DNA from: a virus
DNA: 34,467 nt
Virus record (IMG/VR): IMGVR_UViG_3300025425_000076
Coordinates: 1 to 34,467 of that record
Direction: 5' to 3' (one strand)
The translations under genes and the position numbers were made by a program. Positions 14,662-23,975 of this stretch are shown piece after piece. The first letter of the stretch is position 1, and each line of letters starts with the position of its first letter. The notes under the pieces are model-generated. The model had not been told where the DNA came from, searched no databases, and saw only the letters and a list, made by a program, of their open reading frames with translations.

Positions 14662-15030
14662 ATGTTGAAACAAAAAAAATACAGATCTAAAAGTTACTTA
14701 AAATGGGTAGCTTCTAAACCATGTTTAATTTGTAGATATGAGCCTTGCCAAGCACACCATATTACTATTGCAGAGCATCGTGGCTGGGGACAGAAGGTAT
14801 CTGATAAATACACTATACCTTTGTGTTACCAACACCATGATTTGCTACATCATACTTCTGAACGTAGGTTTTGGAATGAAATAGGAGCAGATCCTATGTT
14901 TTACGCTAATTTGTTGTTTTCTGTAAAGGGTACTGATTGTGATAATGATGAATGGTTATTTAATAATATGTATAAAAGAATTTATCCCCTTGTACAAAAC
15001 AATATAGACTTTTTAATGAAACCTAAATAA
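14662..15030 (+). CDS. HNH nuclease, DUF968/Ref-like
   Basis: A 122 aa protein on the strand opposite its neighbours. Zinc and catalytic positions are clear: C21-x-x-C24 (PCLICRYEPCQ), H32-H33 (AHHI), then C55 (PLCYQHHDLLHH) with H58-H59 and H63-H64, followed by FWNEIGADPMFYA. This is the pattern of DUF968 and Ref-like HNH nucleases, which cut DNA. The ATG lies one base after an AT-rich stretch with no ribosome site, so the transcript may have little or no leader. It leads a three-gene rightward island and could be a mobile endonuclease or a host-DNA-degrading enzyme. Confidence 0.85.
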   Translation: MLKQKKYRSKSYLKWVASKPCLICRYEPCQAHHITIAEHRGWGQKVSDKYTIPLCYQHHDLLHHTSERRFWNEIGADPMFYANLLFSVKGTDCDNDEWLFNNMYKRIYPLVQNNIDFLMKPK

Positions 15031-15047
15031 GATGCAATTATATTATA

Positions 15048-15305
15048 ATGGCTAAAATATTTGAATTTCCTAAGCAATCTAAAGCTGAAAAGTTTATGGA
15101 TGATGTTAATCCAGAAAGTGTTGCCGATCATTTATTAGATAATAATCCTGATCTTAATCCTAGAATTGTATCTGCAATGTCTTTGGCTATGGTGTACGCA
15201 GTTTACCTTTCTATGGTATGTGAAGAAGAGGATTTAGACACTAAAGAGTTATTTGAAACAACTGAATCTAACTGGCCTTTTCCTGATGAAGAAAACATCC
15301 ATTAA
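15048..15305 (+). CDS. Small acidic hypothetical protein
   Basis: An 85 aa protein 17 bases after the HNH gene. It is acidic, with a helix-rich middle (AMSLAMVYAVYLSMVCEEEDL, about 44-65) that is moderately hydrophobic but followed by acidic residues, so probably not a membrane segment. It ends WPFPDEENIH. No family recognised. The next gene starts 20 bases inside its end, so the two are probably cotranslated as part of the rightward island. Confidence 0.6.
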   Translation: MAKIFEFPKQSKAEKFMDDVNPESVADHLLDNNPDLNPRIVSAMSLAMVYAVYLSMVCEEEDLDTKELFETTESNWPFPDEENIH

Positions 15306-15546
15306 GAAGTTTAAATTTAATTATAAAAAAATACATTTATCTTGGTATGATGCTAAATCAGATTCAGGTTGGTTAACTATGACTCAAATGAAAAATCACA
15401 AACCTGCTATATGCCATACACAAGGATGGGTATTTGAAAATAATTCTAAATTTATTAAAATATTTGGTACATACACTATAGATGAAGAAGATCAGTCTAT
15501 AGACTTTGGTGAAATAATTTGCGTACCAAAAATTTGGATTGTTTAA
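15286..15546 (+). CDS. Small beta-rich hypothetical protein
   Basis: The chosen ATG at 15286 gives 86 residues (MKKTSIKKFKFN); the open frame reaches 15253, but that would deepen the overlap with the gene before. The pattern LSWYDAKSDSGWLTM, then PAICHTQGWVFENN, and a C-terminal ICVPKIWIV recalls short phage proteins with W.DA...GW...T.GW and a terminal PK strand. Function unknown. It ends in GTTTAAAC, where its stop and the stop of the opposing gene overlap. Confidence 0.65.
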   Translation: MKKTSIKKFKFNYKKIHLSWYDAKSDSGWLTMTQMKNHKPAICHTQGWVFENNSKFIKIFGTYTIDEEDQSIDFGEIICVPKIWIV

Positions 15547-18779: not shown

Positions 18780-18942
18780 CTGACTCCTTCATTTGTTTAT
18801 ATTTGTTAGTTACTTTACGATACTTAATCGCAAACTCTTTTGTACCCGCAGGTGGATCAACATCTTCTGTTAACCAGTTCCATGATGATCTTATAAGATA
18901 CCCCCCTAGGGTATATCCTACGAATTTAGCTACGTTCCACAT
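18754..18942 (-). CDS. Small early protein (62 aa)
   Basis: I place the start at 18942 (MWNVAKFVGYTLGGYLIRSSW), which has GTGAGGAT at good spacing; the open frame reaches 19005, deep inside the XRE gene. The N-terminal helix is amphipathic or weakly hydrophobic with glycines; the C-terminal half is charged (KYRKVTNKYKQMKESDETYRKHR). It overlaps the end of the XRE gene by 17 bases. Function unknown. Confidence 0.55.
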   Translation of the reverse strand: MWNVAKFVGYTLGGYLIRSSWNWLTEDVDPPAGTKEFAIKYRKVTNKYKQMKESDETYRKHR

Positions 18943-19210
18943 TATCCTCACTTTCTTGCTGTATGTTTTGCTCACTTGGGAGCTGAACATCAGCATATAG
19001 TTCATCTAAATATGAAAACTTTATATCTAATTTCTTAAATAAATGGATTAATTTAGGCAAACTAATTTTATTTATTGAGTTCTCATACTTCTGTATTTGT
19101 TGAAATGTACACCCTAATTCGTTACCCACTTGACTCTGTGTGAAGCCTTTTGAGTATCTCTTCTTCCGTATCAGCGTGCCTATTCTCAGTAATATTTCTT
19201 TTTCGTTCAT
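18926..19210 (-). CDS. XRE-family helix-turn-helix regulator
   Basis: A 94 aa protein with AAAGGAG before its start. Residues about 8-65 form a full Cro/C1-type domain: IGTLIRKKRYSKGFTQSQVGNELGCTFQQIQKYENS, then ISLPKLIHLFKKLDI. The recognition helix is likely TFQQIQKYE. The C-terminus is acidic and lacks a peptidase or dimerisation domain. It probably controls phage promoters, perhaps at the palindromes near 14,593-14,632 or 20,703-20,726; that target is inference. No integrase is present, so a lytic timing switch is likelier than a lysogeny repressor. Confidence 0.88.
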   Translation of the reverse strand: MNEKEILLRIGTLIRKKRYSKGFTQSQVGNELGCTFQQIQKYENSINKISLPKLIHLFKKLDIKFSYLDELYADVQLPSEQNIQQESEDNVERS

Positions 19211-20130: not shown

Positions 20131-20181
20131 TTAAACTATACTGTTTATTATGGTTATTATAATTAACTCTAACCAAGTCAT
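20131..20181 (-). CDS. 16 aa hydrophobic leader-like peptide
   Basis: The frame MTWLELIIITIINSIV begins in ATGA overlap with the stop of the 51 aa gene and ends 18 bases before the 40 aa membrane gene. It is one short hydrophobic helix. Coupling makes translation possible, but its size leaves chance likely. It could serve as a leader for the following membrane genes. Confidence 0.28.
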   Translation of the reverse strand: MTWLELIIITIINSIV

Positions 20182-20333
20182 CTTCTCTTAAGATTCTTAT
20201 GATTAAGACCTAATCCCACTATCTTTCTAAACTTAACATCATGTGGATGCTTTCTTTTAGGTGGTAATGGTATCACTGGCATAGTACTAAATAAGTCTAA
20301 TTGTAGTACCTTTTCATATGTCTTTACGTTCAT
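20178..20333 (-). CDS. 51 aa basic protein, first gene of the leftward unit
   Basis: The frame starts at 20333 with AAAGGAGT at good spacing, just after the noncoding region. The peptide has a helix (VKTYEKVLQLDLFS), a proline-rich turn (PVIPLPPKRKHPHD) and a basic helix (FRKIVGLGLNHKNLKRR). As the first leftward gene it would be expressed earliest and may act on the host or on transcription. No family recognised. Confidence 0.65.
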   Translation of the reverse strand: MNVKTYEKVLQLDLFSTMPVIPLPPKRKHPHDVKFRKIVGLGLNHKNLKRR

Positions 20334-20396
20334 GGTATGTACTCCTTTCCTTATTGTTATTTATTATTAATCAAGTTCGGTTATCAGTTGAACCAA

Positions 20397-20416
20397 CTCC
20401 CTCATGTGTGAGGGGG
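20397..20416. promoter_or_regulatory. GC hairpin in the divergent control region
   Basis: CTCCCTCA (20397-20404) and TGAGGGGG (20409-20416) form eight pairs, one of them a wobble, around a TGTG loop. A small GGG/CCC pair follows at 20419-20428. Read leftward it would sit about 64 bases before the first leftward gene, as a leader structure. No T run follows on either strand. Confidence 0.55.
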
Positions 20417-20470
20417 GTGGGACAACCCAAACATATATATCCAGACTGTGTTGTGAATATATATATAATA

Positions 20471-20511
20471 GTTTACCGACTGCCTTACGCAGTCAGGCCA
20501 GTCGAGTAAAC
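20471..20511. repeat. Nested inverted repeats with alternative pairings
   Basis: GTTTAC (20471-20476) pairs with GTAAAC (20506-20511). Inside, GACTG (20478-20482) can pair with either of two CAGTC copies (20490-20494 or 20499-20503). A further GACTG lies at 20444-20448. The duplicated arms allow at least two exclusive folds, as RNA or as a cruciform. It follows a TA-rich run. Function unknown; it is not a tRNA. Confidence 0.5.
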
Positions 20512-20528
20512 CTAAGAGTGTAAGCAAC

Positions 20529-20601
20529 GAGCAACAGCGAGTTGAACAAGAACCATAAAGGAACATAGCAAGAACAAACATAATGACATGAGCAACAGCG
20601 A
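20529..20601. repeat. Direct repeat pair and degenerate 11-bp units
   Basis: GAGCAACAGCGA occurs at 20529-20540 and again at 20590-20601. Between them are three consecutive 11-base units, AAGAACCATAA, AGGAACATAGC and AAGAACAAACA (20548-20580), each with GAAC in the same place, so GAAC recurs every 11 bases. This helical phasing suits cooperative protein binding, as at iteron origins or operators. The units are degenerate and only three, so chance is not excluded. Confidence 0.45.
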
Positions 20602-20682
20602 ATGACGGGTTTGTAAAGTACACCAAGAGAACTGAGTATCGTGTATGTACTTATATATAGGGGGGTAATGTACAGCTACCAC

Positions 20683-20726
20683 TAGACAATGGAAGGGGGG
20701 GTTTGTTATAATATGCACCATAACAA
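20683..20726 (+). promoter_or_regulatory. Late promoter with overlapping dyad
   Basis: TAGACA (20683-20688) and TATAAT (20707-20712) are 18 bases apart, a good sigma70-type promoter, with a G7 tract inside the spacer. Transcription would start near 20,719, just before the AAGGAG of the first rightward gene. TTGTTAT (20703-20709) and ATAACAA (20720-20726) form a perfect seven-base dyad covering the -10 box, which suits a repressor or activator site. It probably drives the structural operon. Confidence 0.65.
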
Positions 20727-20739
20727 GGAGAACAAAATT

Positions 20740-21036
20740 ATGTATGCATCGCTAGCAAGATTCGGTTACAATATTGCAAAAAAAATAAGACCAAGTAAAG
20801 TAAAAAAATTTTTAAAACCTGCGGTAGACAAAGCTACTAAAGCATCTCTTAAAGGAACAAAGATGGGTGCAGGAGAAGCGAAACTCGTATCTGGGGTACA
20901 AGGAGCTGCCAAAAAAGGATTTAAAGGATATAAGAAATTATATGGCGCAACTCTTGGAACATCAGGTGCTAGGAAAGCAACGTCTGCTGGAATAGGTGGT
21001 TATGCTATAGGATCTTTTTTAGACTCTGACGATTAA
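20740..21036 (+). CDS. Basic glycine-rich small protein, first late gene
   Basis: The start at 20740 has AAGGAG at good spacing; the frame is open 17 residues upstream but crosses the promoter. The protein has 98 residues. The first ~70 are basic and helical (YNIAKKIRPSKVKKFLKPAVDKATKAS), and the end is a small-residue, weakly hydrophobic segment (TSAGIGGYAIGSFLDSDD). Two further late proteins (21,149 and 22,123) share this basic-then-glycine design. It may be a packaged, DNA-associated or membrane-active protein; this is inferred from composition. Confidence 0.62.
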   Translation: MYASLARFGYNIAKKIRPSKVKKFLKPAVDKATKASLKGTKMGAGEAKLVSGVQGAAKKGFKGYKKLYGATLGTSGARKATSAGIGGYAIGSFLDSDD

Positions 21037-22440: not shown

Positions 22441-22711
22441 TGAAAATTACGGGGGGAAAAGACCTGGAGCTGGAAGAAAAAAAGGCTTTAAACGAGAAAA
22501 GATGTGGAAAACAGAACAGGAAATGTCAACGAAGTATCAAACTTCTCCATTAGATTATTTGTTAGCTGTATTAAATAACCCTATCTCATCACCTGAAAGA
22601 AAAATGTATGCAGCCGAAAGAGCAGCACCTTACGTCCACGCAAGAGTTGCAACCACAACCAAACTTGCAACAGACAAACCACTCGAAATCAAAGTCAAGT
22701 GGGAAGACTAA
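22433..22711 (+). CDS. terS: Terminase small subunit-like protein
   Basis: The start at 22433 gives 92 residues (MTSENYGGKRPGAGRKKG); the frame is open eight residues further upstream, but the typical opening begins here. The opening GGKRPGAGRKKG, SPLDYLLAVLNNP (about 38-50) and AAERAAPYVHARV (about 61-73) follow the pattern of small phage terminase subunits, which recognise DNA and regulate the packaging motor. The large subunit directly follows and overlaps. No other candidate for this role is visible. Confidence 0.82.
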   Translation: MTSENYGGKRPGAGRKKGFKREKMWKTEQEMSTKYQTSPLDYLLAVLNNPISSPERKMYAAERAAPYVHARVATTTKLATDKPLEIKVKWED

Positions 22712-23975
22712 AGTACACGAAATAAGCATACCTTATAAACCTAGACCATTACAAAAAGAGGTTCATAAGAGTTTAAAAAGATTTAATGTTCTGGTATGTC
22801 ATAGACGTTTTGGCAAATCCGTACTTGCAATAAATGAACTTATATTACACGCTGTTCAAAATCCAAATCATAAACTAGCTTACATAGCTCCGACTTATCG
22901 TCAGGGTAAAGCCATTGCTTGGGATTATTTAAAGCAGTACACAAAGCCACTTATGTATTTAGGTGGAGATAAAAACGAAACAGAATTACGTGTTGATCTA
23001 TGGAATGGTTCTAAGATCCAAATATATGGGGCAGATAATAATGACTCATTAAGGGGATTAGGGTTTCATGGGGTTATTATGGATGAGTATGCTATTATGG
23101 CTCCTCGTACATGGACGGAGATTGTAAGACCTGCTATCTCAGATACATTAGGATGGGTTATCTTTATTGGAACTCCAATGGGGCATAATCAATTTTGGGA
23201 AGTATATGACTATTCTTTAAGAAATAATAAAGATTGGTTTGGTCAAATGTATCGTGCTTCTGAAACGAAAGTTATACCAGATGAAGAGCTTAAACAAGCT
23301 GCATCTATTATGACAGAAGAGCAGTACAATCAAGAATTTGAATGTAGTTTTACTGCTGCGGTATCTGGATCTTATTATGGTAAGCTAATGACAAAAGCTG
23401 ATAATGAGAATAGAATAGGAGTTGTACCTCTTGACGAAAATGTTGGAGTTGAAACATGGTGGGATTTAGGTATAGGAGATTCAACAGCTATTTGGTTTGC
23501 ACAAAGAGTTGGAGAAGAAGTACACCTAATTGACTATTATGAAAATTCAGGTGAGAGCCTAATGCACTACGCAGATATACTAGAAGATAAAGGTTATGCT
23601 TATTCTAGACATATAGCTCCACACGATATTCAGGCTAGAGAATTAGGAACTGGTAAGTCTAGGTTGGAAGTTTCTCAGGAATTAGGTATAATGTTTGAAG
23701 TTGCTCCAAAACTAGAAGTAGACCATGGTATTGAGTCAGTAAGAAATGCTTTGCCTTACTGTTGGTTTGATAGAGAAAAGTGTAAACTAGGTATTGATGC
23801 GTTGCGTCAGTATCGTAAACAATGGGATGAGAAGAATCAGGTTTTTAAAAGTAAACCCTTACATGATTGGTGTTCACACAGTTCCGATGCATTTAGATAC
23901 GGATGTGTACACGACCCAATAGATGTTAGTGATTGGACTTCCCCAATAAATGTTGATACAAAATATATAGTATGA
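22608..23975 (+). CDS. terL: Terminase large subunit
   Basis: A 455 aa DNA-packaging motor. ATPase motifs: Walker A CHRRFGKS (64-71), Walker B VIMDE (156-160, catalytic E160) and a coupling motif IGTP (187-190). Nuclease domain: WWDLGIGDS (D286, D291), HD at 339-340 and a late acidic residue in HSSDAFRYG (D427). The ATG at 22608 overlaps the small-subunit gene by 104 bases; conserved sequence begins only near IPYKPRPLQK (41-50), so a later TTG (22647 or 22665) is possible. The 3' end overlaps the portal gene by ATGA. Confidence 0.93.
   Translation: MQPKEQHLTSTQELQPQPNLQQTNHSKSKSSGKTKVHEISIPYKPRPLQKEVHKSLKRFNVLVCHRRFGKSVLAINELILHAVQNPNHKLAYIAPTYRQGKAIAWDYLKQYTKPLMYLGGDKNETELRVDLWNGSKIQIYGADNNDSLRGLGFHGVIMDEYAIMAPRTWTEIVRPAISDTLGWVIFIGTPMGHNQFWEVYDYSLRNNKDWFGQMYRASETKVIPDEELKQAASIMTEEQYNQEFECSFTAAVSGSYYGKLMTKADNENRIGVVPLDENVGVETWWDLGIGDSTAIWFAQRVGEEVHLIDYYENSGESLMHYADILEDKGYAYSRHIAPHDIQARELGTGKSRLEVSQELGIMFEVAPKLEVDHGIESVRNALPYCWFDREKCKLGIDALRQYRKQWDEKNQVFKSKPLHDWCSHSSDAFRYGCVHDPIDVSDWTSPINVDTKYIV

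Follow-up and report, generated by a model that had tools for sequence, protein, structure and literature searches.

A probable control region with two structured leader RNAs between the early and late genes of an uncultured marine phage

Introduction

What is the role of a 406-base stretch that carries no convincing gene and lies exactly where the early and late genes of a phage diverge? The DNA analysed here (the window) is a record of 34,467 bases from an uncultured virus, a marine phage. Its large terminase subunit (TerL; 22608–23975, plus strand) shares 51% identity with the TerL of Pelagibacter phage HTVC106P and 47% with that of HTVC010P and, judged by these sequences, the virus is distant kin of the two. 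From 20.74 kb, rightward structural genes extend as far as the end of the record and continue from its start to ~11.9 kb; the genes at 12.0–20.3 kb point mostly leftward and are of the early type. Within this early region, a small rightward block at 14662–15546 encodes an HNH/DUF968 protein and its neighbours, and the local GC skew follows that block. Several related contigs measure 36–39 kb, so some kilobases of the late region may be missing from the record across its ends.

The gap at 20334–20739 is the single junction in the record at which early (minus strand) and late (plus strand) genes diverge. On its left, the first gene of the leftward block (20178–20333, minus strand) encodes 51 amino acids without a family match, and the complement of its Shine-Dalgarno sequence lies at 20342–20347. 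On its right, the first late gene (20740–21036, plus strand) encodes a 98-aa basic protein and is preceded by an AAGGAG site at 20725–20730. A first-pass annotation, made from the window alone, had drawn the gap to these correct bounds and described it as the only long stretch without a gene. It is indeed the longest we found without a convincing gene, the open reading frames listed inside it being judged spurious.

The proteins of the early block that we searched matched, among others, a DUF932 protein, an HTH_3 regulator, the HNH/DUF968 protein and a fragment resembling a nucleotide kinase. We recognized no polymerase, helicase or primase in this set, and no phage RNA polymerase. Skadi, a relative of the HTVC010P type, reportedly depends on the RNA and DNA polymerases of its host (PMC10504331). 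The region described below offers a concrete, conserved target for asking how such pelagiphages, without polymerases of their own, time early and late expression or initiate replication.

Results

Several of the sequence features that had drawn attention to the gap can be read directly from the window. The three G tracts are present as claimed (G6 at 20412–20417, G6 at 20660–20665 and G7 at 20695–20701), and the record has five G/C runs of six or more, three of them inside these 406 bases, where 0.015 would be expected. The 12-mer GAGCAACAGCGA occurs twice, at 20529 and 20590. Three GAAC units do recur at 11-nt spacing (20550, 20561 and 20572), but they are not conserved in relatives and look like chance. 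Folding of the whole gap as a single sequence was unexceptional (z of −1.2 on the plus strand and −1.8 on the minus strand), with z reaching −4.1 for the left half on the minus strand; the hairpins claimed for the region therefore needed comparison with relatives.

Relatives were gathered through the terminase, without use of the gap sequence. This yielded 29 with enough upstream sequence, the 29th of which (L050) begins inside the late gene. All of the 28 that cover the junction carry two elements, S1 and S2, at the same spacing, a count that overstates independence, as several relatives are close kin. Pattern scans added further sequences, including two further groups (groups 2 and 3). Since these scans fix part of S1 and S2, agreement at the seed letters is built into them, but the spacing was free to vary: any of 19 lengths (34–52 nt) was allowed between the two motifs, and 42 of the 61 distinct sequences show a gap of 41–42 nt, with 46 nt in group 3. 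Most of the remaining sequences, with other gap lengths, look like chance matches in unrelated contigs. The window's TerL is 79% identical to that of group 2 and 68% to that of group 3. In both groups the junction is followed by the genes for the small and large terminase subunits; the first late protein could not be aligned with that of group 2. Conservation in relatives had been set beforehand as the test of this region, and repeats as well as stems turned out to be conserved, namely the 12-mers and the long hairpins, as well as the promoter and the G runs ahead of the late gene.

The first of the long hairpins adjoins the early gene. This early-leader hairpin (motif M; 20368–20436, minus strand, in the window GUUUGGGUUG...CAACUGAUAACCGAAC) spans ~60 nt, and across 17 aligned relatives 14 of its 16 pairs change on both sides. 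Its covariation score is 0.578, compared to 0.193 in shuffled alignments (reached in none of 500) and at most 0.133 when the alignment is slid. Read on the plus strand, the helix holds 55 C.A cells versus two G.T cells; on the minus strand, the C.A cells become G.U pairs and the stem runs nearly continuously over 17–19 bp. Folding energy is lower on the minus strand in all 17 relatives, and unbiased shuffles give z of −6.05 on that strand versus −2.57 on the other, the minus strand being stronger in 21 of 21. Compensatory changes above both controls and wobble pairs on one strand show the hairpin to be a structured RNA. Because the C.A/G.T count, the energies and the unbiased z all favour the minus strand, it is most likely the leader of the leftward transcript.

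The window's own copy was matched to the relatives by position and by its flanks (TCAAGTTCGGTTATCA and CCAAACATATATA), and its identification rests on these and on its own fold; a covariance model of the hairpin found no convincing match in isolate phages and missed the window copy itself. The first G6 forms one arm of an enlarged inner hairpin in this copy and is not a separately conserved run. Other readings of the hairpin were dropped: as a coding sequence, since its length varies (57–61 nt) and frames break, and as a plus-strand, riboswitch-like RNA with an internal loop, which was overturned by the C.A count. A stem count that treats both wobble types alike was likewise set aside, as it mixed neighbouring elements together. 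Next to the hairpin, towards the early gene, group 2 (L179, L164 and L150) has another hairpin-like block, in which TATCAA is repeated (CTATCAATACTACAACTATCAAGTTAGTTAATAGTATCAATAGG in L179).

On the opposite strand, a second folded leader occupies ~20471–20604. It opens with a long hairpin, HPA (20471–20511, plus strand, GTTTACCGACTGCCTTACGCAGTCAGGCCAGTCGAGTAAAC; z −5.3), whose counterparts in relatives form the same kind of stem from unlike sequences. G.U pairs number 16 on the plus and two on the minus strand, a count taken from hairpins picked from plus-strand folds; with the strand assigned partly from such hand-picked segments, the unbiased z is the fairer test. For the zone from the early hairpin to S1, z is −4.75 on the plus versus −3.09 on the minus strand, the plus strand being stronger in 20 of 21 (window: −4.4 versus −2.3).

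The duplicated 12-mer caps two further hairpins in this leader, CAAC-GAGCAACAGCGA-GTTG at 20525–20544 and CAT-GAGCAACAGCGA-ATG at 20587–20604 (both plus strand), with tandem G.A pairs closed by C-AACA-G. In all 15 distinct contexts, at least three complementary bases flank the 12-mer and the arms differ; one relative (L015) has a fully paired CATTTGCAACAGCAAATG in place of the second tandem-G.A hairpin. Among 2.9 million viral contigs, the 18-mer core of the first, AACGAGCAACAGCGAGTT, occurs in 14, all of which carry the element. The number of hairpins varies among relatives. With folding and wobble pairs favouring one strand, these data support a structured RNA on the plus strand. The noncoding RNA proposed by the first-pass annotation is thus supported in the form of two leaders on opposite strands.

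Where might the two leaders begin? Between them lies an AT-rich stretch (20430–20470) in which A/T strand bias changes sign; the flip falls between the two leaders, near 20440–20456 in the window. A TATAAT on the plus strand (20464–20469) has no good −35 partner, and promoter scans of the divergent start zone in relatives gave no match above chance. We infer that both leaders start within this stretch.

Downstream of the rightward leader come S1 (20607–20624, plus strand, GGGTTTGTAAAGTACACC) and S2 (20655–20666, plus strand, ATATAGGGGGGT). S1 has the general form GGGTTT...AC[AC]CC and in most relatives reads GGGT-N9-ACCC, resembling a 17-bp dyad; at S2, some relatives carry GGGAGG. From the start of S1 to two bases past the G run there are 61 nt in the window, and each of the 36 aligned sequences has either 60 or 61, a spacing kept even though the first late protein can become too different to align. 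In group 1, the S1-S2 segment shows no folding (z near 0), which, together with fixed spacing and sequence, points to DNA sites. We therefore think S1 and S2 are best read, from their sequence and spacing, as putative DNA sites for a regulator. The stretch between the two elements is taken up by a covarying hairpin in group 2, and a reading of S1-S2 as folded RNA holds in that group only. An H-type pseudoknot is possible at S1 in L139, L150, L166 and L179 only (GTGAATT(C)-GAC-GGG-TTTT/TTTGT-(G)AATTCAC-CCC).

The late promoter named in the first-pass annotation lies at 20683–20712 (plus strand) as TAGACA-N18-TATAAT, matching at 11 of 12 positions, with a TG one base before the −10 hexamer and the G7 run (S3, 20695–20701) in its spacer. 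The form TAGA..-N17/18-TATAAT is conserved in about half of group 1; a conserved promoter of the sigma-70 type, with hexamers 16–18 nt apart, is thus a property of part of that group only. No promoter could be recognized downstream of S2 and ahead of the late gene in group 2, and S3 cannot therefore be a general late promoter.

Beyond the relatives, an Rfam 15 search returned no family at or near threshold, a tRNA search nothing relevant, and direct comparison of the region with phage genomes at the nucleotide level no match. Searches with the element from relatives gave chance hits only, cellular genomes scanned with a strict form of the pattern contained no match, and none of the isolate phages scanned carries the element. 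Many uncultured marine virus contigs carry this pair of oppositely directed leader RNAs, neither with an Rfam match, together with a DNA cassette of fixed spacing; we found them in no sequenced isolate.

Discussion

What, then, is this region for? We consider it probable that the gap is a divergent control region for early and late transcription, worked by the host RNA polymerase. Starting in the AT-rich zone near 20430–20470, the host enzyme would make the leftward early mRNA and a rightward transcript, each beginning with its own folded leader: one long hairpin on the early side and a row of hairpins, two of them of the tandem-G.A type, on the other. S1 and S2 further downstream would act as DNA sites held at a fixed distance, and in group 1 a distinct strong promoter, whose spacer holds a G run, would start the late operon. 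A regulator made by the phage and acting at S1/S2 and the G-run spacer may activate this promoter once the early genes have done their work, and the leaders may tune stability or elongation of both mRNAs. Gene order, the conserved elements and their fixed spacing, the late promoter sequence with its conservation, and the two structured RNAs with their strands are what the sequences show; where the transcripts start, the regulator, its timing and the work of the leaders are read from them. The HTH_3/XRE-type protein encoded inside the early block (18926–19210, minus strand) is a candidate for binding S1/S2 or the late promoter. The master switch suggested earlier would fit this anatomy.

Some of the same features could serve replication instead. 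In that case the region would be an origin primed by an R-loop, with the rightward transcript hybridized at S2/S3 and cut to prime the host DNA polymerase, in the manner of ColE1 or mitochondrial CSB2. That the early proteins we searched included no recognized DNA polymerase, helicase or primase would agree with this, as would the report that an HTVC010P-type relative uses the host DNA polymerase (PMC10504331), the conservation of G runs on one, RNA-like strand and a GC-skew minimum at ~20.5 kb. However, the skew change coincides with the switch of coding strand, which explains the minimum equally well, and the minimum therefore does not separate this origin from antitermination. Considering also that the first G6 belongs to the early hairpin rather than to a conserved run and that GGGAGG replaces the G run at S2 in some relatives, we hold an R-loop origin to be unlikely.

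The folded rightward leader might, alternatively, be a put-like antitermination RNA, allowing read-through of the very long late operon by the host RNA polymerase. A conserved series of plus-strand hairpins does stand ahead of about 25 kb of late genes in a phage for which no RNA polymerase of its own was recognized, and put RNA works in cis, as nascent transcript (PMC9378689). Yet the group 1 late promoter lies downstream of the hairpins, so that its transcripts would not carry them. Given in addition the varying number of hairpins and the lack of an Rfam match, Rfam being the only route by which put was compared, we find this explanation rather unlikely. Quite speculatively, the rightward leader and the S1-S2-S3 G-run cassette could be one device of polymerase-less marine phages, whose transcript would couple late transcription to replication, either by R-loop priming of the host DNA polymerase or by put-like antitermination.

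Could S1, S2 and S3 be operator and promoter repeats and nothing else, the hairpins being by-products of palindromes in protein-bound DNA? The dyad-like S1 of most relatives and the fixed S1-S2 spacing, typical of DNA-bound partners, would suit such a view, but compensatory changes in unlike stems and a G.U bias confined to one strand are not expected of a fixed protein site, and we deem it improbable. A packaging (pac/cos) signal, suggested by a position ~2 kb upstream of the terminase genes, is very improbable, since what is conserved behaves like leader RNAs and a promoter.

Comparison with known systems

Of the phages with known relationship to the window, the HTVC010P-type pelagiphages (Skadi, Greip and HTVC010P) and HTVC106P have TerL proteins 45–51% identical to its own and, like it, divergent early and late blocks; the S1-S2 element is absent from those examined. 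At the early/late junctions of Greip and HTVC010P (L182 22395–22518, L083 577–582), the strand that holds the G/C runs is, with respect to the late genes, the opposite one, perhaps as a different, analogous element. HTVC010P-type isolates also encode a short DnaA-like protein (DnaA C-terminal domain) near a nuclease and an annealing protein (L184 8415–8969, L181 8307–8828, L182 29919–30440 and L183 21439–21951), which possibly recruits or blocks host initiation.

Outside this lineage, the divergent layout of the window, with regulation in between, is shared with the phi29-like region, where early and late transcription units stand back to back; no p4- or p6-like protein was identified in the window, and to our knowledge neither folded leaders nor G-run elements have been described there. 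In the ColE1 RNA II origin and mitochondrial CSB2, as in the window, G runs lie on the RNA-like strand with hairpins upstream. A ColE1-type origin has two G runs about 245–250 nt apart on the transcript; the window's two G6 runs are likewise ~250 bp apart (248 nt), but the pair is not conserved in relatives, the first run being no conserved element there. The put element of HK022 is likewise a folded leader RNA in a phage that uses the host RNA polymerase. It is ~70 nt long and forms two stem-loops in early leaders (PMC9378689), whereas the putative rightward leader of the window, with three hairpins or more, precedes a late promoter.
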